NCBI RefSeq assembly: GCF_907164905.1
Contig: NZ_CAJRAF010000002.1
Coordinates: forward strand, 1,426,001 to 1,490,000
DNA from: Dyadobacter sp. CECT 9275
GTDB taxonomy: Bacteria > Bacteroidota > Bacteroidia > Cytophagales > Spirosomataceae
Direction of reading: 5' to 3'
Length of the DNA stretch: 64,000 nt
Within the stretch, counting starts at the first letter, position 1; each line of letters begins with the position of its first letter. A model generated the notes under the pieces. That model was not told where the DNA came from. It saw only the letters and a list, made by a program, of their open reading frames with translations, and searched no databases. The translations under genes and the position numbers were made by a program. Shown here piece by piece: positions 1 to 14,001 of this stretch.

Positions 1-8
1 TGTATAGA

Positions 9-3000
9 TTATTTTTTAACCAAAGTGTATATTTTTCCTTTTTGAGTCTCGAAGGTTATCATAAAACCATTTGAATCAGGTTTTGAAGTGAATTTCGCTT
101 CTTTTACCGACAGATTTACCGGCGTTCGAAGCACACATGTTTCCCCTGTTAATGACTTAACGTTAACCACTGTGGGCAGATTACTTGCCCACTGAATGTC
201 AAGTTCGAATCCGCCCCTTGCTCTCAATCCTTTGACAAATCCATTTTTCCACTGTGATGGCAATGCTGGTAATATGTCTAAAATATATTTATCCGGAGCA
301 TAGCGCTGCATACTTTGTAGTAGAACCTCTGAAATCCCAGACACTGCTCCAAAATTGCCATCGATTTGGAATGGAGGATGTGCATCAAAGAGATTGGGAT
401 AAGTTCCGCCTGCACCAGCCATAATTGTTCTTGTTTGCTCTGTATACCTAAGCTGGTTTGCAAGCAATTGATTAACCTGATCGCCATCTCTTAATCGCGC
501 CCAAAAATTTTCCTTCCATGCAATTGACCAGCCTGTTCCATCATTCCCTCGAATTTTCAAAGACTTCTTCGCAGCCGCAGCTAATTCTGGAGTTCCTATT
601 GCCGTAATTTGATTTCCCGGATGTAGAGCAAAAAGGTGAGATACATGCCTATGCTCCAGATCATCTGAATTCATATCCCAATCTTTCCCCCATTCCATTA
701 ACTGTCCATTACGTCCGATTTGAAGCTTTTTTATTTTATCCCTCGCGGCAGTGACTTGCTTTCTAAACTCCACGTCGATATTCAATACTTCTGCTGCATG
801 GGCAACGTTGTTGAAAAGATCCCAAATAATTGAACGCTCCATCGTATTTCCTTCTGAAACACTCGCTTTTTGTCCATCGTCCGTTATAAAATAATTCTCG
901 GGCGATGTTGACGGTGAAGTAATCAATTCTCCATTTTGGTCCTCTATCATAGTAGCTAAATAGAATTCGGCTGCACCTTTTAAAGTTGGGTAGACTGACT
1001 TTAAATAAGATTTATCTCTCGAAAATGCATAGTGTTCCCAAAGATGCTGACACGCCCATCCACTTCCGCCAGCAAAAACACCCCAAGGTAGTTTAGCACC
1101 CGGACTTGTCCACCCCCAGCCGTTTGTTGTGTAGCCATAATACCATCCTGGTGTATCAGGGCCAAAATAACTTTTGGCAGACTTCGCACCTGCAGTCTGT
1201 AAGCTTTGCGTTTGTTTTATCATTGGCAGGTGAAGTTCCGATAAATTCGCCTGCTCTGAAGGCCAATAATTCATTTGATAATTAATATTGGACTTATAGT
1301 CACACTGCCATGGAAGAGATAAGCCGTCACCCCAGATACCTTGCGAGTTTGATGGCAAGAGGTTGTCCGGCCGGCTTGACGATATGAGAAGGTACCGGCC
1401 ATATTGAAAAAATAATGAAATAAAAGCAGGATCCATGCCGCCATTTCCATAGCTTTTCAGCCGTTCGTCTGTTGGAAGTGCGGCACTTGATGAAGAGCCC
1501 AGGTCCAATTCTACCCTGTTAAAGTACTGTTGATAATCCTTGATGTGATTGCTTAGCAAAACCTTGTAAGGTTTTGCTGCAACTGCTTTCATCTGTTCTG
1601 TAACCTTGGAATGTGGATGTACTCCCTTATAACCCTTTGCATAGTCTAATAGGTAAGAGGTTCCTGCGGTCAAAAATATGGTTGCTTCGTCTGCCTCGCT
1701 TACGATCAATTGATTATCAATAGCCCTTATGGTCCCGCCTTTAGTTTGCACACTTACCTGCACTTCAAAATCAAGTGTTTTCCCTGTGTTACCGGTCATG
1801 ACCAACATGTTAGTCCCCCGCGATACCGTTTGCGAATTTTCCAGTCTTGTGAGATCGAGTGTAAATGTAACACTGCCTTTTCCAGAGCCTTGGATCCTAC
1901 TCACGATGGCCTGATCAGGAGCTGAACTAAATGTTTCTCTACGGTATTCTGTTTGTCCTATCGTGAAACTAACTCCTGATACAGCTCTATTGATATCAAG
2001 CCACCTTTTATAGTTTGAAGCAGTACCTTGAGGCAGGCTGAATTGTAGTGACAGCTCCCCCAATGTTTGATAAGATGCCGAATAGGGAGCTGACGAAGTC
2101 ATATATTCATTCGTTAATTTTTCCGCCAGCTGATAGTTCTGCTCTCTTATTGCTTTTCTTACGTCTGGGAGATGTTTATATGCATCTTTTCTATCTGCAT
2201 CAGGCTGAGGGCTATGAGACCATACTGTAATGTCATTTAGCTGGAGCCGTTCACGATCCGGACCACCGAAGATCATCGCACCCAATCTGCCATTTCCAAT
2301 GGGCAATGCAGTTTCCCACTGTGCTGCGGGACTGCGGTACCAAAGCATATTAGAGGTATCGCCAATATACTCAGCTCCTAGGGCGGATCGAAGTTTTGAT
2401 AACTTATTTTTCCCTCCGGTATGACTCACATACTGCTCAGTATCATTTTCTAATACCCAGTCTACTACCAAACCCGAAACGTTGACATCCTTCTCTAAGT
2501 CCTGTGTAGAAAGGAATTTATGGTGTATTGCAGCTTTTTTTATTCGACCATTCAGAGCATTTTTCCCATCGGAATCCGAGCCAATCCTTAACGGGAAATT
2601 AGTACGAGTAATTTCGGGCAACAGTGTATCTGATGTGGTAGCAACTTCTTCCGAGTTTATGTACAGCTTGAACTTATTTAGTGATTTGCTATATGCGCCA
2701 ACAACCTTTACCCATTGATTCAGCGGAATTGTCTGCAGGCTAAGCAGTTGCTTTTGCCCGGCAGCCATCCAAAGTTTATTGTCGCCTCCTATGCCGAGCG
2801 CATATCCTCCTGAGCCATTATTTGATTGATATTTATCGATGATCCTGGCTCCCGGGCTCTGTTGGTCAGTTAAAAAAATGATGGCTTCAAGGCTAACTTC
2901 ATCAGTCAGATCCATAGCGGGAGTGTGACTGGCTTGCCAAACTCCCTGTTTGGGAGACACTTCAATCCCTTCCTTACTTTCTACTTGAGAAAAGGTATGA

Positions 3001-3053
3001 ATATTGGAAAAAGCCGAAAGAAATATGGCAAAAAGTGAAATACGGACGTACAT
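9..3053 (-). CDS. Glycoside hydrolase family 95 (alpha-L-fucosidase/galactosidase type) with N-terminal LamG-like domain
   Basis: A secreted 1014-residue enzyme that probably removes alpha-L-fucose or related sugars from polysaccharides such as xyloglucan or host glycans. A signal peptide (about residues 1-22) is followed by a concanavalin/LamG-like domain (about 45-205, with repeated sugar-binding style strands) and then the GH95 module beginning at LWYRSPAAQWETALPIGNGR. Family landmarks seen are HRHVSHLFALHPGNQ and GNDGTGWSIAWKENFW in the alpha-barrel and the beta-sandwich C-terminus. GH95 proteins are usually 750-800 residues, so the excess is the LamG domain. The stop lies at the extreme left edge, so the gene is complete. 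The next gene on this strand, an acetylesterase, lies beyond the AT-rich ATPase-TIR segment and may once have been adjacent. Confidence 0.92.
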   Translation of the reverse strand: MYVRISLFAIFLSAFSNIHTFSQVESKEGIEVSPKQGVWQASHTPAMDLTDEVSLEAIIFLTDQQSPGARIIDKYQSNNGSGGYALGIGGDNKLWMAAGQKQLLSLQTIPLNQWVKVVGAYSKSLNKFKLYINSEEVATTSDTLLPEITRTNFPLRIGSDSDGKNALNGRIKKAAIHHKFLSTQDLEKDVNVSGLVVDWVLENDTEQYVSHTGGKNKLSKLRSALGAEYIGDTSNMLWYRSPAAQWETALPIGNGRLGAMIFGGPDRERLQLNDITVWSHSPQPDADRKDAYKHLPDVRKAIREQNYQLAEKLTNEYMTSSAPYSASYQTLGELSLQFSLPQGTASNYKRWLDINRAVSGVSFTIGQTEYRRETFSSAPDQAIVSRIQGSGKGSVTFTLDLTRLENSQTVSRGTNMLVMTGNTGKTLDFEVQVSVQTKGGTIRAIDNQLIVSEADEATIFLTAGTSYLLDYAKGYKGVHPHSKVTEQMKAVAAKPYKVLLSNHIKDYQQYFNRVELDLGSSSSAALPTDERLKSYGNGGMDPAFISLFFQYGRYLLISSSRPDNLLPSNSQGIWGDGLSLPWQCDYKSNINYQMNYWPSEQANLSELHLPMIKQTQSLQTAGAKSAKSYFGPDTPGWYYGYTTNGWGWTSPGAKLPWGVFAGGSGWACQHLWEHYAFSRDKSYLKSVYPTLKGAAEFYLATMIEDQNGELITSPSTSPENYFITDDGQKASVSEGNTMERSIIWDLFNNVAHAAEVLNIDVEFRKQVTAARDKIKKLQIGRNGQLMEWGKDWDMNSDDLEHRHVSHLFALHPGNQITAIGTPELAAAAKKSLKIRGNDGTGWSIAWKENFWARLRDGDQVNQLLANQLRYTEQTRTIMAGAGGTYPNLFDAHPPFQIDGNFGAVSGISEVLLQSMQRYAPDKYILDILPALPSQWKNGFVKGLRARGGFELDIQWASNLPTVVNVKSLTGETCVLRTPVNLSVKEAKFTSKPDSNGFMITFETQKGKIYTLVKK

Positions 3054-3263
3054 ACCGATGACAATTAGATATTACAAAGAAACTCTTGAATTGTATCAAC
3101 ACAAGCGTTTTAATTATCCTGCATGATAAGATATTTTATCATCAAAGTTAAAATATAGCAGATTTCTGATGGTACGGATCGGGTATTATGCAGGCCAGGA
3201 GTGATTTTCGGTTACTTCCAGTACCTAGCAATTCCAGTATAACAATCCTGAGTGTACCGCTGT

Positions 3264-3311
3264 TTGTGTCCTCAAAAGCATCCAGCTTGTTCCTCATTTG
3301 TGAGGACACAA
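3264..3311. repeat. Perfect 11-bp inverted repeat
   Basis: TTGTGTCCTCA at 3264-3274 is repeated inverted as TGAGGACACAA at 3301-3311, spaced by 26 bases. Followed 22 bases later by a second, tighter hairpin. Function unknown; it may be a decayed mobile-element end or a regulatory structure. Confidence 0.6.
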
Positions 3312-3333
3312 GGGAGGGCGTCGGAAAACATTG

Positions 3334-3354
3334 CTGGGCTTCTCCGAAGCCCAG
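3334..3354. repeat. Perfect 9-bp hairpin with 3-base loop
   Basis: CTGGGCTTC at 3334-3342, loop TCC, and GAAGCCCAG at 3346-3354. It has no adjacent T-tract, so it does not look like an intrinsic terminator. It is strikingly GC-rich for this AT-rich stretch. Confidence 0.6.
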
Positions 3355-4098
3355 GTGCGAATCCCCAATTCTGCAGAAAAGGTACCTGCCTTTACGGTCG
3401 CCATGTATTCATTTATGCATCTTGCGTCCCACAAAACTTCAAAAAATAGAGATCAATCTATCTTATCAAGGGCCAGATGGGATGAGCCCCAAAGAAAATC
3501 AGATATTATCAAGAAACAGTTTCTGTCGCTTAATTGAAAATCAGCACTAAACAAGAAGCCGTAGAAACTCCTCAAATGCACAATTCGCACCGTTTTATGT
3601 TAGAAAATAGCCAAACTCTAGGGTAGTGTTCAGAGAACATTACGCACAATGAGGGATCGAGAGGCACAATCCACTTAATTTAGTTTATTGTCCAGTCAGG
3701 AAATGCGTTCAATATTATATAAAACTTATCTAACGGCATTACGTTTCGAGAAAAGATCATTATCTTAGGCCATACTTAACCCTCTTGAGATGACAAACAT
3801 TTTTTTACCTCTAAATTTTTTATATCCTTTAGCCACAACTCTGAAAAACCACTATCAAATAGTAAAAATTCCAACTCTTTTTTGCACAGTTAATACCTGT
3901 GGCAGTAAATCATATTCTTTTTTACAAATAGTACGTTTAGTGAATTCCACAAAGATTTACCTCTGCCGACAGGCAAGCAGTTTTCTTGAGTCTGAAAATG
4001 GTTGGATGAAGAAAAAGCAGAATATGAAAACTTGATAAAGGATGTAGATTTCATCATCTATCAAGTTACTACTTCCAACCTAAATTTCTACACCATAC

Positions 4099-7000
4099 AT
4101 GAAATATTCTCCTTGGTTCGTTGACGCGGACCGAATTCAAATAGGTTATTCAACCACAGGTATTGAAAGTTTTCTTACGAGGACCAATTCGATAAATAAA
4201 TTTCTCTCACCGCAGGAGACTAATAAATATTTTCTGGTCGGCCCAAAAGGACTAGGGAAGACACTACTATTAAAACTAAAATCGCTACAACTTAGAGAAA
4301 AGTCTTACAAAGTCATTCCGGAGTCGACGCTGTGTGAGAAAATTAATGATATCGTAACCAAATTTTCTTATGAATCGATACATGACCTTGAAACAGAAAG
4401 GATGTGGAAAATTATCTGGGAGATTTCACTTTGTTGCTGTATAGCTAGGAATTGTAACGTTTCCTTACCAGAGGAAATATCACGAATTATCGGCTTGGCG
4501 AAGAGTCTCTCTTCAATCTTAAAAATCTTCTTGTCATTAGGAACTAAAAATATTGAAAAACTATATAACAAATTTAACGATACACAATTAAGACCGATCG
4601 TCGACAATTTACATGAGCGTGGAGTTTCACAACTCGCTCTGTTTATCGACAATATTGATGAAGGATTCAGTAGCCACGTCGGTGAAGCTGGAAAGACAAA
4701 TAGTGAAAATACTTACCTTGTATCTGCCGAATTGTGGATAGCAGCCCAAATAGCAATTCTTGGTATTTCCAAAAGGTTAATGCAGGCAAACCCGCATCTT
4801 AAGATATATGTATCAATAAGGAGCGAGGCATTTAACCAAATAGTCGCACAGGAAAAGAAGCAAATTGGTGATTTGTGTACCTTTTTAGAATATTCGAAGG
4901 AGCAGATAAAAGACATCTTTCTTAAAAATATTCGAGAAACGGATTCTGACAATCTTGTTTTTCCATCGGAAAAAGATGCTATAAAATCGTTTCTGGGCTT
5001 TACTGGCATGCCACATCGATTTGTCAGAGATGAGAAAGGTGAGAAGGTTGTAGAAGATGTATTCGATTTCATATATCGGCATACCTTTGGCAGACCTCGT
5101 GAAATCGTAGCAATGGGCGAAAGAATATCGAATATATCTCCAAATGAAAGAAATATGGAAACCATTCACAACGCCATTAATAACGAAAGTTCAGAGTTAT
5201 TCAAGCAGCTTACCTTGGAAATAATTCCTTCATTCGATATAGATATCTTTAGGAAATTTATTAATATAATTAGCAAGAATATATTTAGCCGTCGCACTGC
5301 CGAGATCGCTTATAAGTATTTTGCAGAAAATGAGAAATTTAAACACATATGCTCATACTACTGGAACTTGGGTATTTTGGGGATTGTAAAACAAAATGGG
5401 GCAGATAATAGTCGGCTAATCCAAGCATTCAGACCTGTTGGACAATATTCACTTGCAAAAGACTACGTACCAGAATATAAGTCTTTCTTAATGCATCCGG
5501 CTACATATTCATTAATGGAAGAAGTCTTGTATGACAGGGCAAACTTTTTCAGTTTGGAAAATATTGTAGGTTATGATAATATTTTTATAGAGGCCAGATC
5601 AAATTATAACAGGATACGCTATCATCTTCATTTGGGTATGGGTAGAGATTCATTGTCAATTTTGGTGCCGACGTTGCATAATCATAAAATCTTGGGAATA
5701 GTGATCAATCCCAGTAATAATATCTGGAATGAGCTGTCACTTGTCGAGTATTTTGAATTGAGAGTTGATGAAGATGTTTTCAAATTTAGAGTATATAGAG
5801 ATGAATTTGAGGCTTATCGAAGAGATCAGATTTTTAGAGAATGGATTGATGACAAACAAGCAACTATTTTCTTTACCGGGAACAAAGAGTTAATTAATAA
5901 CATAGCATCAAACGCTTCAGCGATAACCACTACGGATTATGAAGATATAAAATTCTTGGAAACCATTGGTAGTTCGGTGGACAATAATAACAAAATCATA
6001 TATCTGTGCAAACGAACCTTCGATACGGCACGAGAATTAGACTTTAAAAACAAATTATTCCTAATACACCCAAGCTGGAAGCTTCGTAAGGTACTAATAG
6101 ATCGCTATACTCTCTCCAGTAAGAAGTCAGTAAAAAATCAAAACTTGCTCTGCGAAATCGAAGTCGAGGAATATCCAGGAAAACAGGTCTCTCTTTATCA
6201 TGATCAACTTAGCGTTATTCCAAATGGTATTGTTAGGCGCCCCAAGTCGAAGGAGGAATTCGATTTTTATGAGCGTGAATTCCGACTGTTACGGGAAGGT
6301 ATTTATCAATACTATAAGCTACTAAGGCAAAAAGGGTTGATTCGACAAGGAAGCCAGGATTGTTTGCCAAGGCTCAGGTTATTTGCCTCAATACAGATAG
6401 AGGGCTTACTGTCTGGACAAAATCGACAAGTTTTAAACGAAGTATTTGGGAGGGATGATCGACCAAGTATTCGTAAAGAACTGATGAATGAATGTTTGAT
6501 CCACTTTAAGAGGTTGGACGCATTGGAGCAAAGTCGGCTTGGTAACAACGGCCAGTCTGTAAATATTTCCGAACTAAAACGAACCATGGTCCTTCTTTCA
6601 AATGTCGGAATTTATGACTTTGTAAAATTATCAAGAGATTATATTGAAGCTCCTTCCCTTTGTGTAGATGTTTTAAAAGATTTGCAGGTCTATCCAATTA
6701 AGAAGTATTTCAGTACATTTATCTCTTATTCGTTTAGGGACACACAATTCGCTTCAACACTAGCCAATTATCTTATATTGAATGGAGTCAAAGTGGAGAT
6801 GTTCGAAATTGATGACCCAAAGGGAAAGCTTTTGGGCATAATGTCAGAATATGTCAAAAAGAATGAGAAAATGATATTTCTTTCATCTAGAAATTCTTTA
6901 ATAAGCAGTGCTTGTCATTTTGAGCTTAAAACTTGCCGAGAGAAGATCAGTAAGAATTGGAAGGAAATGTTAATCCCAATAAGAATTGATGACTATATCC

Positions 7001-7179
7001 TTGAAATCCAAGAATATGATATTCCATCAGATAAGAGATCTTTATTTTGGGAAAATATAATTTTCATCAAAGAAAACAATGTTCACGACTTTTCTAAACA
7101 TTCGGCTTTGACAGACAAAAAGCTATTTGAGGCGGAAATTCTTGAGAAAATTTTAAATAAATATTTAAAGGCAAAATAA
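4099..7179 (+). CDS. P-loop ATPase fused to a C-terminal TIR domain (candidate anti-phage defence protein)
   Basis: A 1026-residue protein. The N-terminal half is a P-loop NTPase: Walker A GPKGLGKT at residues 48-55 and Walker B-like LALFIDNIDE at 179-188, resembling the Sll1717-type/STAND-like P-loop ATPases. Residues about 480-865 are a region I do not recognise. The C-terminus (about 869-1026) is a TIR domain, with the opening FSTFISYSFRD, the ...KGKLLGIMSEYV helix and CHFELK carrying Glu942 at the position of the TIR NADase catalytic glutamate. By analogy with TIR effectors in Thoeris, CBASS and Avs-like systems it may deplete NAD or signal when the ATPase module senses infection; that is inference. 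No partner gene is visible on either side. The gene is AT-rich compared with its neighbours and flanked by long non-coding stretches, suggesting horizontal acquisition. Start chosen as the ATG just before the conserved N-terminal FVDADRIQIG. Confidence 0.85.
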   Translation: MKYSPWFVDADRIQIGYSTTGIESFLTRTNSINKFLSPQETNKYFLVGPKGLGKTLLLKLKSLQLREKSYKVIPESTLCEKINDIVTKFSYESIHDLETERMWKIIWEISLCCCIARNCNVSLPEEISRIIGLAKSLSSILKIFLSLGTKNIEKLYNKFNDTQLRPIVDNLHERGVSQLALFIDNIDEGFSSHVGEAGKTNSENTYLVSAELWIAAQIAILGISKRLMQANPHLKIYVSIRSEAFNQIVAQEKKQIGDLCTFLEYSKEQIKDIFLKNIRETDSDNLVFPSEKDAIKSFLGFTGMPHRFVRDEKGEKVVEDVFDFIYRHTFGRPREIVAMGERISNISPNERNMETIHNAINNESSELFKQLTLEIIPSFDIDIFRKFINIISKNIFSRRTAEIAYKYFAENEKFKHICSYYWNLGILGIVKQNGADNSRLIQAFRPVGQYSLAKDYVPEYKSFLMHPATYSLMEEVLYDRANFFSLENIVGYDNIFIEARSNYNRIRYHLHLGMGRDSLSILVPTLHNHKILGIVINPSNNIWNELSLVEYFELRVDEDVFKFRVYRDEFEAYRRDQIFREWIDDKQATIFFTGNKELINNIASNASAITTTDYEDIKFLETIGSSVDNNNKIIYLCKRTFDTARELDFKNKLFLIHPSWKLRKVLIDRYTLSSKKSVKNQNLLCEIEVEEYPGKQVSLYHDQLSVIPNGIVRRPKSKEEFDFYEREFRLLREGIYQYYKLLRQKGLIRQGSQDCLPRLRLFASIQIEGLLSGQNRQVLNEVFGRDDRPSIRKELMNECLIHFKRLDALEQSRLGNNGQSVNISELKRTMVLLSNVGIYDFVKLSRDYIEAPSLCVDVLKDLQVYPIKKYFSTFISYSFRDTQFASTLANYLILNGVKVEMFEIDDPKGKLLGIMSEYVKKNEKMIFLSSRNSLISSACHFELKTCREKISKNWKEMLIPIRIDDYILEIQEYDIPSDKRSLFWENIIFIKENNVHDFSKHSALTDKKLFEAEILEKILNKYLKAK

Positions 7180-7756
7180 CGATAGTCGTTACGATTAAAT
7201 TCTATGTAGGACCATCGATATTTCTCAAGACACTATAGCAATTCCATAGCTATCGGTGAAAATTGTCGTGTCCCCCCCGCTCTGCATCCTCAATGCAACT
7301 TGATTCCTTGCCTCATGTTGTTACAGGACCTATGTACGACACTAGTATCGGGTATCAAAACCGCCTATATTATGGTTCAAAACTCTAAATTCATCTTTAC
7401 CATGATTTCTAAAATCTCATAGTTGTCTCGTAATCTCCCTACGACGACACAACGTCCTCAGCCCGATTCGCAAAACACCTTACCCCCGTTTTCATAGTTT
7501 CCAAAACTTACGAATCGATACAATGTGCCGTCTGAGAGGATAAATTTCGGATAACACCTCGCACCTAGCTATTGTTCAATATCTACTTCAGCTGAGTTTA
7601 CTTTGATTTACCATCACGTAACCTATCGTTAATACATAGTAAAAACACTAAGCACAACAAAGCGTCATCAGTCTCTGACCGATCTACAAAAAAACATCCT
7701 ACAACCTTCACCCAAATTTAAAATACCAGCATCAAACCTCCGCTAACCACAAACCC
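7180..7756. other. Non-coding stretch between convergent genes
   Basis: About 580 bases separating the ATPase-TIR gene from the acetylesterase gene. I see no open frame with coding character, no RNA gene and no clear intrinsic terminator. The composition (C-rich top strand, short A-runs) differs from both neighbours, consistent with the right flank of an inserted segment. Confidence 0.5.
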
Positions 7757-9187
7757 TCACTTCGCCGTGGCCCCCACCTCCCACTCATCAGTCCGAAACG
7801 GCCCAACCGGCAAACCTTCACTACTAAAAAGATTCGACATGGCTTTGTTGCTGAAAGAAAACCGCACGGCTACAGGTTTTCTGATCTGTGGATAGGATAC
7901 CACAATACGGTCATTTTGAAGTTTGGCTGTGGCGGGTAAAAAGACTTTGTCTTCTCCTGCCATGTAGAAAGACGTAGGTTCCTGGCCGTCAACGGTTTTA
8001 AAGCCAGCGGGTGCGTTTTCAAAAAACAAAGAGGCTTTGTCGCCTTTTACCTCCATCCGCTTGAAAGCAGGACTTTTATAGACCGCACCCTTTTGCCCAT
8101 ACGTATCGCCCAAAGCATATCGGGCGAGCCGTAAACCTACATCCTTTTTATTTTTTGGGTGTATGTCTTTGATGTTGTCCACCAGATCGCTGATGACGAC
8201 CATACCCGTACCGGGAAGCGTGAGGGACTTCGCCTGCGCTTCGCGTAACAGGGCCGATTCCTGGGGACTTGGGTATGCAAATGGCGCGATCTGTACAAAG
8301 TAGAAGGGAAATTGCTTTTGCCAGTCTTGCCGCCATGCCTCAATCATTTGCGTGAAAAGTTTTGTATAAGTGGATGCCGTGGATACATTACTTTCACCCT
8401 GATACCAGATAGCCCCCGCAATGGGGAAATGTCTGAGCGGGTAAATCATGCTGTTGTAGGCATATCCGGGGGTGGTAGGCCAGGAAGGGTACGGCTTCAA
8501 TTTTCCGGCGGCTGTCTGCAACTCCGGATCTTTGGTCACAACGCTTTCCGGCGCCCATACTTCCGCCGGTGTGCCGCCCCAGCTTGAATTGATAATGCCT
8601 ACCGGAACTTTCAATTTCTCCTGCAGTTCCAGCGCAAAGAAATACCCGACCGCGCTGAAGCCGTCCAAGGATTGCGGACTGCAAACCTTCCAGCTTCCTT
8701 CGATCTGATCCTGCGGTGTCGGAGAAGTAGACTTGGGCACCTGAAACAACCGTAAATTCTGATTCCCGCTGGTGGGCATGGCCTCCAAAATCTGCGGCAC
8801 TTTTTGAATACTGCTCCACTCCATGTTCGACTGCCCGGAGCATATCCACACCTCCCCGATCAGGATATTGTCGAGTATAATCACGTTTTTTCCTCTGAGC
8901 GTAATGGTATGCGGCCCGCCGGCTCCCGGGGTTGGGATTTTGATCTTCCAGCGCGCATCACCGTTACTGACCACCGAATCTGTTTTCATGTTCCAGGAAG
9001 TGGTGACAAATATCTTTTCGCCCGGACTGGCCCAGCCCCAGAGCACTGCATCCGACTTTTGCTGTAGTACCATATTGTTACCCAGAACATTAGGCAGCCG
9101 GATGTCGGCAAAGGCAGGCGATACGAGCAGGGATATAAAAAAAACAACAGAATAAAAAAGGGTATGCGGCGGTCTTGAGCTTTTCAT
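7757..9187 (-). CDS. Sialate O-acetylesterase family protein (SASA/SGNH hydrolase)
   Basis: A 476-residue exported carbohydrate esterase that probably removes acetyl groups from sialic acid or from plant polysaccharides. A signal peptide ends near SPAFA (residue about 27). A beta-sandwich of about 80 residues precedes the SGNH fold, recognised from GEVWICSGQSNMEW (nucleophile serine block) and GAIWYQGESN, both hallmarks of this family, with a late DIHPKNKKDVG block carrying the catalytic His. The length is normal for the Bacteroidota members. It lies on the same strand as the GH95 gene, so the two may act on one glycan, GH95 cleaving sugars after deacetylation; this link is inference from position only. 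Confidence 0.9.
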   Translation of the reverse strand: MKSSRPPHTLFYSVVFFISLLVSPAFADIRLPNVLGNNMVLQQKSDAVLWGWASPGEKIFVTTSWNMKTDSVVSNGDARWKIKIPTPGAGGPHTITLRGKNVIILDNILIGEVWICSGQSNMEWSSIQKVPQILEAMPTSGNQNLRLFQVPKSTSPTPQDQIEGSWKVCSPQSLDGFSAVGYFFALELQEKLKVPVGIINSSWGGTPAEVWAPESVVTKDPELQTAAGKLKPYPSWPTTPGYAYNSMIYPLRHFPIAGAIWYQGESNVSTASTYTKLFTQMIEAWRQDWQKQFPFYFVQIAPFAYPSPQESALLREAQAKSLTLPGTGMVVISDLVDNIKDIHPKNKKDVGLRLARYALGDTYGQKGAVYKSPAFKRMEVKGDKASLFFENAPAGFKTVDGQEPTSFYMAGEDKVFLPATAKLQNDRIVVSYPQIRKPVAVRFSFSNKAMSNLFSSEGLPVGPFRTDEWEVGATAK

Positions 9188-9332
9188 TTTGGATTAAGGG
9201 TTTTTGACTTTCAATAAAAGCTTCCTGCTTGTGATACTTACCCAATTTATGAAGAATTCGGGCATTTTCATCTCCCTCATTTTGCAGCGTGGTACTCCTT
9301 TCTGATCGCGCAGTTTGCAAATTATTGCTGTT

Positions 9333-9354
9333 TTTTCTGCATCGCAGCAGAAAA
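9333..9354. repeat. Stem-loop between divergent genes
   Basis: TTTTCTGC at 9333-9340 pairs with GCAGAAAA at 9347-9354 around a six-base loop. It lies between the divergent acetylesterase and TonB receptor genes. It may be a regulatory or 5' UTR structure; no assignment is possible. Confidence 0.45.
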
Positions 9355-9369
9355 GCTATATATTTGTCA

Positions 9370-9393
9370 TTATTTATAATAAGTCTATTTAAA
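9370..9393 (+). promoter_or_regulatory. Possible Fur-like operator before the siderophore receptor
   Basis: The AT-rich imperfect palindrome TTATTTATAATAAGTCTATT, ending about 10 bases before the receptor ATG, resembles the dyad arrangement of Bacteroidota iron boxes. The downstream genes are iron-uptake type, which makes iron control plausible. The match is by eye and degenerate. Confidence 0.3.
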
Positions 9394-9402
9394 ACTAACG
9401 TA

Positions 9403-11703
9403 ATGAAAATAATTTATGCCCTCGTTTTCACTTTTTTCTCCCTTCAAGTCATTGCCCAGACAGGCACTGTCAAAGGAACAATAACTACCTCTGACGGCAA
9501 ACCAGCAGAATTTGTGAACGTAATCCTGGAAGAAACAGGGAAAGGTACGGTGGTTGATAAAGACGGGAACTATACACTTCATAAAGTTCCAGCCGGATCT
9601 TACACGCTGGTGGCCAGCTTCACCGGACTTGTAACGCAAAAAAGTGAGGTCATTGTTTCCGCAGAACAGACCGTTCAGATCGATTTTACCCTGGTCGAAG
9701 ATAACAGGCAGCTACAGGAAGTACTTGTCAGAGGTACCAGCCGTATGGTAAACAAGGAGAGCGAGACGGTGGCTCGCATGCCGCTTAAAAATCTGGAAAA
9801 TCCGCAAGTATATAATGTGGTAAGCAAGGAACTGCTCAAGGAACAGGTCGTAACGGTGATGACCGACGCGCTCAAAGCAGCGCCGGGTGTAGTAGCCGTT
9901 TCGTTTCCCAGCGGAGGAATTGGTGTAATGTCCCGTGGTTTTGCCACGAATGTAGGCGCCAGAAATGGGCTCCAATCAGACCTGGGCCGTTCCAGTGCGG
10001 ATGTTTCCAATATTGAGCGCATCGAATTTATTAAGGGGCCATCCGGGACTTTATTCGGCTCCTCGATTTCTTCCTTCGGCGGTTTGGTCAACATCGTAAC
10101 CAAAAGGCCAGGCGAGCACTTTTTTGGTAACGTCGGGCTGACGGTTGGAAGTTTCGGACTATCCCGCCTGACGGCCGATATCAGTAGTCCCCTCAACAAT
10201 GAAAAAACAGTGTTCGCTCGAATCAATACAGCAATCCACCGCCAGAATAGCTTCAGCGACTTTGGCCGAGTCAACAGTTTTGCTTTTGCACCGAGTTTGC
10301 TATACAAGGCAAACGAAAAATTGACTGTACTTTTTGATGCGGAGATTTTCAACGCCAACTCGACACGACCTACCTATACCCGGTTCGGGCCGCAAGCAGG
10401 CATTACCAACTACAAGGATATCCCCTTGGATTACAGAAAATCGCTTTACGATAATGATCTGGATTCCAAGACGCAATCTCAAAAATATTTTGTTGAGGCC
10501 AAATATAAGATCAACGAAAACTGGACATCGTCGTCTAACCTTTCGTACGTGAACGAACTTACCGATTACAGCTATCAAACGTATAACACATGGATTACGA
10601 AGGATCGCGTGGCAAGGTATGTCGGCATCTGGGGACCGATTAAAAACACGTACATCAATGCACAGCAGAATTTCGTGGGAAAATTTAACACCGGCGCCGT
10701 AAAACACACATTACTGGCAGGCGTGAACTATACCAATCTGTATGCCAACGGAATGAGCAAGAGCGGCCCCAATTTTGACACCATCAGTGTATCTCAGTCT
10801 TACAAACTCATCACAAAAATTTATACAGATAAATTGCTGCTCTTACCCGAGAGAGTCAGCAGCCGGGGAACCACCAAGAACCAGTACATGGGCGTGTATC
10901 TGTCAGAGGTAGTTAATCTGAGTGATCGCCTGTATGTTATGCTGAGTCTTCGTTTTGACAGGTTTAAACAGGGAGGCACCTCGGCTGAATATGAACAGAA
11001 CTCGGTTTCTCCCAAACTGGGACTGGTGTATCAACTGATTAAAAACAAAGTATCCTTATTTGGGAACTATATGAATGGCTTCCAGAACACCAACCCCCAG
11101 GTAGAACAGCCCGATGGATCTATTCTGAATATCAAACCGCTGTATGCTAACCAGTGGGAAACAGGCCTGAAAACCGAGTGGCTCGACGGAAAGGTGAGTG
11201 CAACGCTGAGTTACTACACCATCAATATTGATAACGCGCTTCGCACGGATGATAGCCGATTTACCACTCAGGACGGAAAACAGCAAAGTAAGGGTATCGA
11301 ACTGGATGTACTCGCAAACCCTGTCAGCGGATTGAATGTGGCCCTGGGATATGGATACAACGAAAACAGGATTGTGAAAGCCACATTGAACCAGGGAAAT
11401 ATAGTCGCCGGAGCACCTCAGAATATAGCCACCTACTGGATCAGTTATAAATTCAGACATCAGATACTGCGGAACCTGGGCGCGGGCATAGGTGGAAATT
11501 ATGCTTCGGACGCCTATTTCAGCGACGCCAACACCGTCACACTACCGTCGTATAGCGTTGTAAACGCGACTCTTTTCTACGAAAATGCCAAATGGAGAAC
11601 AGGTATTAAACTCAATAACATTGGAAATACACATTACTGGGATTCTTACGGTATCTACAACCCGACCCGAAACTTTTCAGTGGACGTGGCTATTAAGTTT
11701 TAG
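9403..11703 (+). CDS. TonB-dependent siderophore receptor with carboxypeptidase-regulatory N-terminal domain
   Basis: Outer-membrane receptor of 766 residues importing an iron-siderophore or a similar ligand using TonB energy. A signal peptide (MKIIYALVFTFFSLQVIAQ) leads to a CarboxypepD_reg-like domain (about residues 22-100), a plug domain (VVTVMTDALKAAPGV ... IERIEFIKGPSGTLFG, the classic plug motif) and a 22-strand barrel ending in an aromatic residue (VDVAIKF). I chose the ATG at 9403 rather than the upstream in-frame start at 9289 because it begins a clean signal peptide. The PepSY protein gene starts six bases after the stop, so the two form an operon. A possible iron box lies just upstream. 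Confidence 0.92.
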   Translation: MKIIYALVFTFFSLQVIAQTGTVKGTITTSDGKPAEFVNVILEETGKGTVVDKDGNYTLHKVPAGSYTLVASFTGLVTQKSEVIVSAEQTVQIDFTLVEDNRQLQEVLVRGTSRMVNKESETVARMPLKNLENPQVYNVVSKELLKEQVVTVMTDALKAAPGVVAVSFPSGGIGVMSRGFATNVGARNGLQSDLGRSSADVSNIERIEFIKGPSGTLFGSSISSFGGLVNIVTKRPGEHFFGNVGLTVGSFGLSRLTADISSPLNNEKTVFARINTAIHRQNSFSDFGRVNSFAFAPSLLYKANEKLTVLFDAEIFNANSTRPTYTRFGPQAGITNYKDIPLDYRKSLYDNDLDSKTQSQKYFVEAKYKINENWTSSSNLSYVNELTDYSYQTYNTWITKDRVARYVGIWGPIKNTYINAQQNFVGKFNTGAVKHTLLAGVNYTNLYANGMSKSGPNFDTISVSQSYKLITKIYTDKLLLLPERVSSRGTTKNQYMGVYLSEVVNLSDRLYVMLSLRFDRFKQGGTSAEYEQNSVSPKLGLVYQLIKNKVSLFGNYMNGFQNTNPQVEQPDGSILNIKPLYANQWETGLKTEWLDGKVSATLSYYTINIDNALRTDDSRFTTQDGKQQSKGIELDVLANPVSGLNVALGYGYNENRIVKATLNQGNIVAGAPQNIATYWISYKFRHQILRNLGAGIGGNYASDAYFSDANTVTLPSYSVVNATLFYENAKWRTGIKLNNIGNTHYWDSYGIYNPTRNFSVDVAIKF

Positions 11704-11709
11704 CAGTAC

Positions 11710-12930
11710 ATGACAATTAAAAAGATCACAGGAAAATTACACCTCTGGCTCGGACTCTCTTCCGGGCTAGTGGTGTTTATCGTGGCCATTACCGGCTGCA
11801 TTTTTACATTCGAGGAAGAACTCTTCGGTGTCTTTCATTCCGAACTGGCCCGTGTTGAGGCTCCATCCGATACCCCAAAAACGCTGCCCGTATCCACTTT
11901 ACAGCATGTGGCTCAAAGGGCATTTGGGGGCAAGGATACGGTGTCATTCGTCAACATTTACCGTGAAAACGACCGCGCCTGGGAGTTTGACGTGTACCGA
12001 TACGACGATAAAAAAACCGCAAACAGCTTCTGGGATCACGCCGGGTTATATTGGAAAAAGGCTTACATCAATCCCTATACCGGAGAATTGAACGGCATCA
12101 TGGATATGAAATATGAGTTCTTCACGGTGGTCCGCTCCATTCATCAGAACCTTTTCCTCAACCCCGACATCGGAAGCCCGATTGTAGGATCGGCAACGAT
12201 CATTTTTATAATCTTACTGTTATCCGGCTTTGCTTTGTGGTGGCCCGTAAACAAAGCTGCTGCACGCCAGCGGTTTGCTTTCCGCTGGAAGAAAACCACC
12301 CGCTGGAAGCGCAAAAATTACGACCTGCACAATATTCTTGGGTTTTACATACTTGTATTTGCCCTTTTTATCGGACTTACAGGAATAGTATGGTCGTTTA
12401 AGTGGTGGGAAAATGTAGTATATACGGTGCTGGACGGGAAAGTAGTACGGTTTAAACTGCCGCAAAATCCTGATAAAACGCCGGCAGGTAACGAACCAAC
12501 CCATTTGTTTGACCAGGTGGTAGCAAGAATTCAAAAAGAGAATCCACGCTATGACCGTATTTTTCTTTCAAAAAACAGATCAACCAATACACTCACTGCG
12601 GGTGCCAACTTTAAGGACAATACCTTGTGGACAGGCTACAACTATTACATGTATAATCTGTCGACAGGTAAGGAATATGGAGGGCTTCTTCAAAAAAACA
12701 AAACCACGGGCCAAAAGTGGCGCAACAGCAATTATGATTTGCACACTGGAAAAACCTTGGGGTACTTGGGTATGACGATTGCTTTTTTTGTTTCACTGAT
12801 CAGCGCTTTATTGCCCCTTACCGGATTTTACATTTGGTGGGGCAGAAGAAATAAAGGCAAGAAAGGACCCGTTCATTCTCCTGAAACGCCTCCCTCCTAC
12901 CAAATGAAAGGCAAAGCAATCATCAAATAA
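11710..12930 (+). CDS. PepSY-associated TM helix protein (iron-regulated membrane protein, PiuB-like)
   Basis: A 406-residue inner-membrane protein with four predicted transmembrane segments: near residues 15-35 (LSSGLVVFIVAITGCIFTF), 150-180, 205-230 (LHNILGFYILVFALFIGLTG) and 350-375. Two periplasmic PepSY-type segments lie between helices. Conserved histidines occur at the start of helices (LHLWLGL, YDLHNILG, YDLHTGKTLGYLG), typical of the PepSY_TM family. Such proteins sit next to siderophore receptors and may help iron release or reduction in the periplasm. It follows the receptor by six bases and is certainly cotranscribed with it. Exact biochemical role is not established for the family. 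Confidence 0.88.
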   Translation: MTIKKITGKLHLWLGLSSGLVVFIVAITGCIFTFEEELFGVFHSELARVEAPSDTPKTLPVSTLQHVAQRAFGGKDTVSFVNIYRENDRAWEFDVYRYDDKKTANSFWDHAGLYWKKAYINPYTGELNGIMDMKYEFFTVVRSIHQNLFLNPDIGSPIVGSATIIFIILLLSGFALWWPVNKAAARQRFAFRWKKTTRWKRKNYDLHNILGFYILVFALFIGLTGIVWSFKWWENVVYTVLDGKVVRFKLPQNPDKTPAGNEPTHLFDQVVARIQKENPRYDRIFLSKNRSTNTLTAGANFKDNTLWTGYNYYMYNLSTGKEYGGLLQKNKTTGQKWRNSNYDLHTGKTLGYLGMTIAFFVSLISALLPLTGFYIWWGRRNKGKKGPVHSPETPPSYQMKGKAIIK

Positions 12931-12963
12931 TCAGGCTATTAAGTGAAAGACATAGAGAGTTTT

Positions 12964-12993
12964 GCCTCCGTTTGTATCCTCACAAACGGAGGG
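12964..12993 (+). terminator. Stem-loop after the iron-uptake operon
   Basis: CCTCCGTTTGT at 12965-12975 pairs perfectly with ACAAACGGAGG at 12982-12992 around a six-base loop, 34 bases after the PepSY stop. There is no strong T-tract, so it may be a weak or Rho-assisted terminator or an mRNA-stabilising hairpin. Confidence 0.5.
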
Positions 12994-13057
12994 CACTAAT
13001 GGTGACGGGTGGTGACACTCGAACGCAGTCTGGAGTCATTAAACCCAGCCGGCACAG

Positions 13058-13948
13058 TTAATTGAGCAGCTGCTTTTTGAAAAAAACAGGTGTAGTCCCC
13101 ACCTCCTTTTTAAACAGCCTTGTGAAGTACGAAAGATTTTCAAACCCCAGGGCATAGGCAATCTCCGAAACCGAAGTTGCTTCTGATTTGAGCCGGTTTT
13201 TAGCTTCAGATATCAGATAGATGTGGATGTGCTCCAGTGCGGTCTTTCCGGTTTCCTGTTTCAAAACATCGGTCAGGTATCCGGGGGAGATATGTAACTT
13301 CTCGGCCAAATAATGAACCGACGGAAGTCCTTTACTGGTCAGGAAACCGGCTGTAACATACCTGTCCATCTCTTCGGCAAACCTGGTGGCAGTTCTGCCG
13401 GATATTTCTGAACGATTCATAAATTGACGTTTATAGAACCGCTGAGCGTATTTCAGCAGTGTGTCCAGATTGGCCAGTATAATTTCGCGGCTATATTCAT
13501 CCTGATTATTGCTATACTCCATTTCAATTTTTCGGTATAACTCCCAGATCGTTACTTCTTCCTTTGGGGAAAGGTGAAGGGCCTCATTGGTTTCATAATC
13601 GAAGTAGTGGTATTTTTTAATGTCGTTGTGCAGAATGTGTCCGTTCAAAAAATCTTCGTGGACAAAGATGAGAAATCCATCTTCCTCCAAATCCAGATTT
13701 TTCATTTGAATGATCTGACGTGGCCTGACAAACATCATTGATCCGCAATCGTGATCATACCTGGTGCGGCCATACAGTATGACGCCCGATTTCAGTTTTT
13801 TGAACCCAATCATATAAAAATCGCTGGTGAACTCCCGGTCGCCCAGCGTACAGGCTCCGTTGCATTGATAAATACTGAACAACGGGTTCTCATTGAGCGT
13901 AAAACCATTGTCCCGGTGCAATTCGCTCAGATTTTTATAGTGTTTCAT
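13058..13948 (-). CDS. AraC family transcriptional regulator
   Basis: A 296-residue regulator with an N-terminal sensing domain (about 1-185, cupin-like) and a C-terminal AraC double helix-turn-helix (about 195-295). The first HTH contains LPSVHYLAEKLHISPGYLTD; the second contains SVSEIAYALGFENLSYFTRLFKK, followed by the typical G-T-T-P-xx-F ending. It probably controls the upstream SDR gene and itself. I chose the ATG at 13948 (MKHYKNL): farther-upstream in-frame starts at 13954 and 13969 exist, but the 13969 one falls inside a perfect inverted repeat that looks like an operator. Both AraC-SDR genes are on the minus strand, SDR first. Confidence 0.88.
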   Translation of the reverse strand: MKHYKNLSELHRDNGFTLNENPLFSIYQCNGACTLGDREFTSDFYMIGFKKLKSGVILYGRTRYDHDCGSMMFVRPRQIIQMKNLDLEEDGFLIFVHEDFLNGHILHNDIKKYHYFDYETNEALHLSPKEEVTIWELYRKIEMEYSNNQDEYSREIILANLDTLLKYAQRFYKRQFMNRSEISGRTATRFAEEMDRYVTAGFLTSKGLPSVHYLAEKLHISPGYLTDVLKQETGKTALEHIHIYLISEAKNRLKSEATSVSEIAYALGFENLSYFTRLFKKEVGTTPVFFKKQLLN

Positions 13949-13958
13949 ATCCATAACA

Positions 13959-14001
13959 TTGTAACACAATCTGAGCGCTTATTCGCCAGATTGTGTTACA
14001 A
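13959..14001. promoter_or_regulatory. Perfect 15-bp inverted repeat between SDR and AraC genes
   Basis: TTGTAACACAATCTG at 13959-13973 is exactly repeated in inverse at 13987-14001, with a 13-base spacer. It sits just upstream of the AraC start (13948) and after the SDR stop (14024). It lacks a T-tract in the minus direction, so an operator for the AraC protein or an mRNA hairpin is more likely than a terminator for the SDR gene. Confidence 0.6.

Follow-up and report, generated by a model that had tools for sequence, protein, structure and literature searches.

Gene organisation and relatives

The 64,000-nucleotide stretch of Dyadobacter sp. CECT 9275 analysed here (contig NZ_CAJRAF010000002.1, positions 1,426,001 to 1,490,000; referred to as the window) carries on its forward strand, at window positions 4099–7179, a gene for a protein in which a P-loop ATPase, a region that seems to be a degenerate polyol dehydrogenase and a TIR domain follow each other. 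The open reading frame (ORF) is intact, without internal stop codons, and encodes 1026 amino acids arranged from the N- to the C-terminus as an Sll1717-type P-loop ATPase (residues 24–445), a middle part and a TIR domain (residues 874–965). The original prediction, that a single frame joins a P-loop ATPase to a TIR domain, is borne out by the intact frame together with matches above cut-off to both NF047389 and PF13676, and the motifs it had named, GPKGLGKT (residues 48–55), LALFIDNIDE (residues 179–188) and CHFELK with Glu942, are all in place. When 5.8 billion proteins were searched by a word-limited method, 28 matches came up, consisting of the query (P0001), ten full-length relatives at 30–53% identity (P0002–P0011), three proteins whose alignment covers the ATPase, alone or with part of the middle (P0012–P0014), and 14 kinase-TIR proteins with the ATPase at the C-terminus. 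Because of the ten full-length relatives the fusion is not due to chance, and its layout is common to all 11 full-length proteins, the set to which counts out of 11 refer below.

ATPase part

The N-terminal part (residues 24–445, window 4168–5433, forward strand), where the ATPase is followed by a region that looks winged-helix-like by eye, matches the NCBIfam model NF047389, "P-loop ATPase, Sll1717 family", with an E value of 2.1e-23 and 83.2 bits against a cut-off of 75. The cut-off is exceeded by six of the 11 proteins (P0001, P0002, P0003, P0006, P0007 and P0010); P0009 stays below it with 61.9 bits, P0004 and P0005 give no match at E ≤ 1 and P0008 and P0011 none at E ≤ 0.01. When analysing the family alignment, invariant residues (11 of 11) were found in the Walker A motif (4240–4263; P49, K50, G51, G53, K54 and T55), in the Walker B motif (4633–4662; D184, N185, D187 and E188), at R241 and in the sequence GRPRE (residues 331–335, 5089–5103; R332, P333 and R334), the last of which we take, by eye, to resemble the GxP motif of STAND ATPases. 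Two Pfam STAND models, nSTAND3 and ATPase_2, each match five of the 11 proteins (best E 0.0027 and 0.0011, respectively), with P0001 under both cut-offs. The N-terminal part is an ATPase of the Sll1717 type that may be STAND-like.

P0001 thus shares its ATPase, at a curated cut-off, with the Sll1717 family, of which 11 matches above cut-off were found in nine of 296 genomes of the phylum, its own included. It differs from most of them in build, since eight of the 11 matches sit in open frames of 498–554 amino acids, which are too short for the ATPase-middle-TIR layout. The word Sll1717 was not found in the open-access (PMC) papers searched.

TIR domain

The Pfam-matched stretch of the TIR domain (residues 874–965, window 6718–6993, forward strand) matches TIR_2 (PF13676) with an E value of 1.6e-9 and 38.7 bits against a gathering cut-off of 28, and at E ≤ 5 the model is matched by all 11 family members (best 9.3e-17). 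Glu942 (codon at 6922–6924) occupies the site at which TIR enzymes that cleave nicotinamide adenine dinucleotide (NAD) have their catalytic glutamate, and it is kept in 11 of 11 proteins; its replacement in most homologues, named beforehand as an observation that would speak against the original prediction, was not seen. In SpbK, a single-protein TIR NADase, defence was lost once the conserved glutamate of the TIR had been changed (PMC11984713), and the conserved residue suggests P0001 as a candidate NADase.

A comparison of the family TIR profile with the PDB revealed 21 sequences at E ≤ 0.01, led by Toll-like receptors (TLR6 TIR, 1.8e-8) and including MyD88, a metazoan TIR-STING and, more weakly, the plant proteins RPS4, RPV1 and RUN1. 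The TIR domains of Toll-like receptors work as scaffolds and, as no bacterial TIR is among the matches, the closest solved TIRs leave the choice between enzyme and adaptor undecided. An adaptor role without enzyme activity, in which the TIR recruits other TIR proteins in the way of Toll-like receptors, would agree with these closest structures and with the two further TIR_2 genes present in the genome, but it would have no need of a glutamate that is invariant in the whole family, and we regard it as extremely improbable.

Among the PADLOC models P0001 matched only a ThsB-type TIR model (E 0.0015, confined to the TIR). The description of the protein as undescribed holds to the extent that, in PADLOC, nothing beyond the TIR itself clearly matched a described defence protein, and the anti-phage part of the same claim is probable, as argued in the Discussion. 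In the family the best matches were likewise to ThsB-type TIR models (ten of the 11 members, best 9.5e-9), together with a SAVED-TIR model, a match of P0008 to ThcB4 of Thoeris type III around the TIR region (E 9.3e-6, far under the cut-off of the model) and a weak match of one member to PDC-S66 (E 0.013). The TIRs of ThsB, a signalling protein, and of ThcB4 are related to that of P0001, and these matches would suit a TIR that, in a Thoeris-like manner, makes a signal nucleotide of the cyclic adenosine diphosphate ribose type, to which an effector encoded at another place in the genome would respond, instead of killing by loss of NAD. This is quite unlikely, considering that the match of P0001 is weak and limited to the TIR, that the ThcB4 match lies so far below its threshold and that the adjacent genes include no conserved partner. 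Thoeris requires a second effector gene, ThsA (PMC11204291), whereas the P0001 loci have no conserved neighbour, and the protein is not counted as a member of Thoeris.

Middle part and its probable link to polyol dehydrogenases

The middle (residues about 486–846, window 5554–6636, forward strand) had been called unrecognised, which holds for the protein alone, without notable match in Pfam, PADLOC or NCBIfam, but not when a sister family is included. This family consists of P0012, P0029, P0030 and P0031, which have the same ATPase, a C-terminal half related to the middle and no TIR. A profile of the 11 middles, run against 347 targets, found all four sister middles at 79–94 bits, followed by a split ATPase relative (locus L004, 7.7 bits), a neighbouring ORF (5.4 bits, the best sequence without known kinship) and a reversed middle (5.0 bits); among the 303 ORF decoys of this search are the two locus copies of the family itself (485.8 and 441.0 bits) as well as further relatives of the ATPase. 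In the reverse direction a profile of the four sister sequences found all 11 middles at 30.6–57.1 bits, followed by six real dehydrogenases (12.5 to 5.0 bits) and the best reversed sequence (4.9 bits), and the comparison of middles and sister family by hhalign gave an E value of 5e-17.

The sister family in turn resembles polyol dehydrogenases. P0012 matches Mannitol_dh of Pfam (PF01232) over profile positions 4–190 of 199 (E 6.7e-4, 20.1 bits, under the cut-off of 27) and the NCBIfam model of mannitol-1-phosphate 5-dehydrogenase (NF002651) over positions 2–355 of 368 (E 9.2e-4, 18.4 bits, far under the cut-off of 269). PF01232 is also matched by P0029 (1.1e-3) and P0031 (0.077), with no match reported for P0030, and NF002651 is matched by P0012 only, not by P0029, P0030 or P0031. 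Since P0029 also matches CsdE at 7.5e-4 over 37 residues, apparently by chance, E values near 1e-3 are not proof by themselves.

Calibration came from a profile of 14 dehydrogenases, nine of them annotated as mannitol-1-phosphate dehydrogenase, one as 'mannitol dehydrogenase family', one as 'hypothetical' and three unannotated with 37–64% identity to the E. coli enzyme. It was run against 339 sequences made up of 18 targets, their 18 reversals and 303 ORFs of at least 300 amino acids from the fetched loci, control regions (L169–L178) serving as decoys in the profile searches. The four sister proteins took ranks 1–4 at 27.7, 26.5, 18.6 and 11.9 bits, and next came P0011 of the TIR family (3.1 bits) and the best decoy (2.1 bits). 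When 60 UxaB/UxuB-type proteins were added to the profile the sister proteins again ranked 1–4, with P0031 (8.8 bits) and P0030 (7.5 bits) little above the next sequences (locus L168, 6.5 bits; a reversal, 5.9 bits). When the 14 enzymes and the four sisters were combined in one profile, only two of the 11 TIR-family middles, P0011 (6.9 bits) and P0010 (5.9 bits), exceeded the best decoy (3.8 bits), both within the correct co-linear stretch. As the TIR proteins give no clear direct match, their link to the dehydrogenases is a two-step one, through the P0012 family.

Other comparisons gave less. No profile-profile match was found between the middle and UxaB/UxuB-type dehydrogenases, and the sister family against the 60 proteins of this type reached a P value of 0.0026 over 113 columns with a probability of 11.5%. 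The PDB search with the sister profile had no match at E ≤ 5. The single E. coli MtlD sequence against the sister profile had a P value of 1.1e-4 in hhalign, but over 25 columns only, and 3.9 bits in HMMER, where one of 500 shuffles scored higher (7.2 bits). Relatives of E. coli MtlD were absent at E ≤ 1e-20 from 395 genomes of the phylum.

Polyol dehydrogenases carry GxGxxG for the cofactor, a catalytic Asn beside a Glu and the motif KxxxxNxxH (PMC4022671 and PMC6623548). In E. coli MtlD and all four sister proteins the glycine loop, EN, DRI and KxxxxNxxH occur in the same order, the sister family keeping HFGxGxxG and the other three motifs in four of four cases, though P0030 and P0031 differ in the Arg that follows the glycines. 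In all 11 TIR proteins these motifs are lost, apart from Asp-Arg of DRI. The glycine loop HFGxGxxGRG has become H-x-G-x-x-(R/K)-D, in P0001 HLGMGRDSLS (residues 511–520, window 5629–5658) aligned with HFGVGNLGRG of P0012. Glu-Asn is replaced by two of K/R/Q, in P0001 K638-R639 (6010–6015; placed by eye, the role of the Asn following PMC6623548). In KxxxxNxxH the Lys, Asn and His are replaced by F/Q/N, Glu and Tyr, in P0001 F728, E733 and Y736 (residues 720–736, 6256–6306; placed by eye, the motif following PMC4022671). The Asp-Arg of DRI is the sole part of the dehydrogenase motifs that remains. With KxxxxNxxH, Glu-Asn and GxGxxG all absent from 11 of 11 proteins the middle is therefore probably a pseudo-enzyme, and it is not counted as an enzyme among the polyol-specific long-chain dehydrogenases. 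Mannitol-1-phosphate 5-dehydrogenase of that group would have a fold like that of the middle, judged through the P0012 family, whereas here the glycine loop, the catalytic Asn and the Lys, Asn and His of the motif are replaced and the region is part of a 1026-residue protein. Particular to the middle of the TIR family are R516 (Lys in P0010) and the invariant D517, E733, G734 and Y736, which may form a new binding site.

It could be argued that the middle is a different Rossmann-like domain, its polyol-dehydrogenase likeness through P0012 being convergent or wrongly chained. The lack of clear direct matches for the TIR proteins, the empty PDB search, the Pfam and NCBIfam matches below cut-off (NF002651 in one of four proteins, and the CsdE match of P0029 of similar strength) and the scores of P0030 and P0031 barely over the decoys with the broader profile would fit this, but decoy-calibrated searches in both steps and four motifs in the correct order in all four sister proteins make it very unlikely. 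The middle thus seems to be a degenerate polyol dehydrogenase placed between switch and TIR.

Distribution, base composition and surroundings

A pattern scan of 84,980 species genomes revealed 20 loci, two of them with full-length copies (Fibrella forsythiae and Winogradskyella haliclonae). Among 395 genomes of the class a match at E ≤ 1e-30 was found only in the window's own genome, and of 59 related genomes nine matched, eight of these only from residue 802 on, around the TIR. The protein is therefore rare and scattered, and in its own 7.2-Mb genome the gene is present in one copy. No relatives were found in 50,697 phage records or in a pattern-limited scan of viral contigs, and among 72,556 plasmids there were only two matches, both partial and to the ATPase. 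A maximum-likelihood tree built from 30 ATPase domains unites the 11 TIR proteins on one branch, at a support of 90/91 that does not reach the 95 mark, and places the four dehydrogenase proteins on a separate one (99/100). The two branches and three further proteins lie in an 18-row group (95/94), in which their mutual order is not settled, and several end branches are long. As the motifs of the sister family are intact as in free enzymes, the common ancestor of both groups would most simply have had a working dehydrogenase.

The guanine plus cytosine (GC) content of the gene is 0.356 compared to 0.448 across the window, and its base composition is foreign to its surroundings. The copies in Fibrella forsythiae (locus L002; 0.304, locus 0.457) and Winogradskyella haliclonae (locus L003; 0.293, locus 0.328) are low in GC as well, so that this holds for all three loci with known surroundings. 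The window copy lies, by eye, between a glycoside-hydrolase-like gene (9–3053, reverse strand) about 1 kb away and a sialate-esterase-like gene (7757–9187, reverse strand) about 0.6 kb away. When the ORFs of at least 80 amino acids in the first 17.2 kb of the window (33), in L002 (49) and in L003 (33) were compared at E ≤ 1e-3, the window shared with the others only the gene itself, and L002 and L003 additionally shared only matches to one L003 recombinase ORF. The claim that there is no partner gene is accordingly upheld at these three loci. The expectation that homologues stand beside defence genes was not borne out at the same three loci, as judged by eye and by a Pfam scan of nine neighbours at L002 and L003, and held for some distant ATPase relatives (see below) and for the closest TIR in 36 other genomes of the genus (E 6.4e-43), a pentapeptide-repeat protein in genome G026 (L067:11759–13120, reverse strand) whose gene lies between hsdS and hsdR, with hsdM and a McrBC-like pair nearby.

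Recombinase genes were found near two of the three loci; serine recombinases flank the Fibrella copy on both sides, and in Winogradskyella a tyrosine recombinase (PF00589) lies upstream, a second one was seen by eye, and an unclassified gene of 269 amino acids lies 43 bp downstream. Together with the low GC at three of three loci and the rare and scattered occurrence this could mean that the protein serves the mobile element carrying it, by exclusion of rival elements or plasmids, and not defence against phages. By eye no recombinase was recognised among the ORFs of window positions 1–14000, however, and the phage records, viral contigs and plasmids searched gave the near-empty result described above, so that a role of this kind is unlikely. 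In the genomes of the genus that were searched, the genes around the window copy lack conservation; the best other GH95-like match has 45% identity, and an esterase orthologue in genome G012 (71% identity) stands in different surroundings. The ends of an insertion could therefore not be drawn.

Upstream of the gene an inverted repeat (4029–4067, forward strand) with 16-nucleotide arms, 88% complementary, and a 7-nucleotide loop ends 31 bp before the start codon and may be a chance occurrence. Another inverted repeat further upstream (3264–3311) has arms that are 93% complementary. An Rfam scan of window positions 1–12000 gave no match reaching the gathering score, and promoter and terminator scans stayed at chance level. 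Near the Fibrella copy, among the recombinases, a gene resembling dATP/dGTP pyrophosphohydrolases was seen (L002:6783–7379, reverse strand; PF04447, E 1.4e-14).

Other partners of Sll1717-type ATPases

Related ATPases are joined to several other domains. At locus L168 (genome G123) an N-terminal TIR (E 1.7e-5, slightly under the Pfam cut-off) is fused to an Sll1717 ATPase (122.8 bits); the fusion matches the bSEFIR model (E 2.8e-8), and beside it lie one gene with a strong likeness to ThsB (PADLOC E 3.2e-62) and another that matches more weakly (6.1e-7). In L168:3782–7979 the ThsB-like gene, the second, weakly ThsB-like gene, a small ORF and the fusion stand in a row, possibly forming a Thoeris-like locus that includes an ATPase. 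P0014 carries a phosphoesterase (PF00149, E 8.9e-9) with a likeness to the anti-phage model DS9_1 (E 2.1e-8, 33.4 bits against a cut-off of 420), and a plasmid-borne protein of Butyrivibrio that contains the ATPase (E 3e-10) carries the annotation SEFIR. The ATPase at L006:9995–12070 has a weakly cyclase-like C-terminus (LipJ model, E 3.7e-4, far under cut-off) and is separated by one gene from a type IIG restriction gene (E 5.3e-40), and at L005, L007 and L010 a cyclase-like C-terminus was judged by eye. DUF4062 (E 8.7e-10) accompanies the ATPase at L018 and a deoxyribosyltransferase-like start (E 4.8e-5, under cut-off) at L159.

Two loci showed other arrangements. In Undibacterium (L011:9986–14252) the ATPase protein is present in two tandem copies, with TnsA/TnsB-type genes downstream by eye, and in a member of the Saprospiraceae (L004:9992–12055) the ATPase relative is split in two ORFs, the second weakly matching the middle (the 7.7 bits given above). 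P0012, P0029, P0030 and P0031, with an Sll1717-type ATPase, a mannitol-1-phosphate-dehydrogenase-like half with intact motifs and no TIR, could possibly be a separate system with a dehydrogenase as effector.

By eye the neighbours of several Sll1717 ATPases look ordinary, and the middle seemingly descends from an NAD-dependent enzyme fold, which would be compatible with a cellular regulator that has no part in defence and uses its dehydrogenase-like middle to sense the state of NAD or sugar phosphates. With the NAD loop and the catalytic residues lost, and a presence in one of 395 class genomes and a foreign base composition ill-suited to a housekeeping role, we consider this highly improbable.

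Discussion

We propose, with a probability of roughly 60%, that the protein is a solitary, horizontally spread abortive-infection protein in which the ATPase and the pseudo-dehydrogenase sense or gate and the TIR destroys NAD without a partner. The Sll1717-type ATPase would act as an ATP-dependent switch and the middle, having lost its NAD loop and catalytic residues, as a regulatory part, or one binding a ligand or phage protein, between switch and effector. Upon triggering the protein would assemble, driven by ATP, and bring the C-terminal TIR domains together, these would cleave NAD through Glu942, and the loss of NAD would halt the cell ahead of phage release, no partner gene being required. 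The sequences show the domain order, the homologies (in two steps for the middle), the conserved ATPase motifs and Glu942, the lost active-site motifs of the dehydrogenase and the lack of a conserved neighbour; assembly, trigger, cleavage, arrest and phages as the target are what we infer.

Some observations weigh against this proposal. NAD cleavage cannot be read from sequence, and all 21 PDB matches of the TIR profile are animal or plant proteins, with no bacterial NADase structure among them. The direct matches of the TIR proteins to dehydrogenase profiles are not clearly above noise. Known defence genes were recognised neither next to the window copy (by eye only) nor next to those of Fibrella and Winogradskyella (nine neighbours scanned with Pfam, the rest by eye), and among ten other loci with Sll1717 ATPases above cut-off, inspected by eye, defence genes were seen only at L168, the other nine being ordinary-looking or having recombinase-like genes.

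Known systems resemble the protein in part. bSEFIR combines a TIR-like domain and a P-loop ATPase in one protein, to our knowledge without a dehydrogenase-like part; P0001, which has its TIR at the opposite end, gave no listed match to the PADLOC bSEFIR model at E ≤ 10. Avs and other STAND NTPase (nucleoside triphosphatase) defence proteins are large single proteins with an ATPase switch and an interchangeable effector. P0001 differs from them in having no recognised repeat sensor and in its C-terminal effector, and the Avs models, which presumably belong to the PADLOC library, gave no match listed at E ≤ 10 for P0001 and none among the family members. SpbK of Bacillus ICEBs1 is likewise a single-gene, element-borne TIR protein with a conserved catalytic Glu, but its 267 amino acids consist of an N-terminal domain, a linker and the TIR, without an ATPase or dehydrogenase-like part (PMC11984713). 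In the open-access (PMC) papers searched the terms 'mannitol dehydrogenase', 'TIR domain' and 'phage' were not found together. A further paper, presumably with Kaur as first author, treats conflict systems dependent on nucleoside triphosphates. It describes TIR and calcineurin-type effectors, and in it 'mannitol' is absent and 'dehydrogenase' occurs twice, in references (PMC7159879). These comparisons suggest that the identity of the middle as an apparently dead dehydrogenase, reached via the sister family, and the build of the ATPase-TIR protein are new, the protein itself being a probable phage-defence protein.

How the apparently dead enzyme came to lie there is more speculative. In one possible, though doubtful, course of events an ancestral defence protein of ATPase and dehydrogenase, with the dehydrogenase as its effector, acquired a TIR, which became the killing domain, while the earlier effector degenerated to a sensor or gate; the P0012 family, with its active-site motifs intact, would then be the survivors of the ancestral state. 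We know of no described defence system with a polyol dehydrogenase as effector.

For the ATPase-TIR protein the finding gives the middle a testable identity, and it links the barely studied Sll1717 ATPases to TIR, SEFIR, kinase-TIR, phosphoesterase and possibly cyclase-like partners, such interchangeable partners being a pattern of conflict systems. It also raises the question whether an NAD-binding enzyme has been turned into the gate for a likely NAD-destroying one, and a new kind of effector chemistry might come to light in the sister family, where the dehydrogenase motifs are intact.

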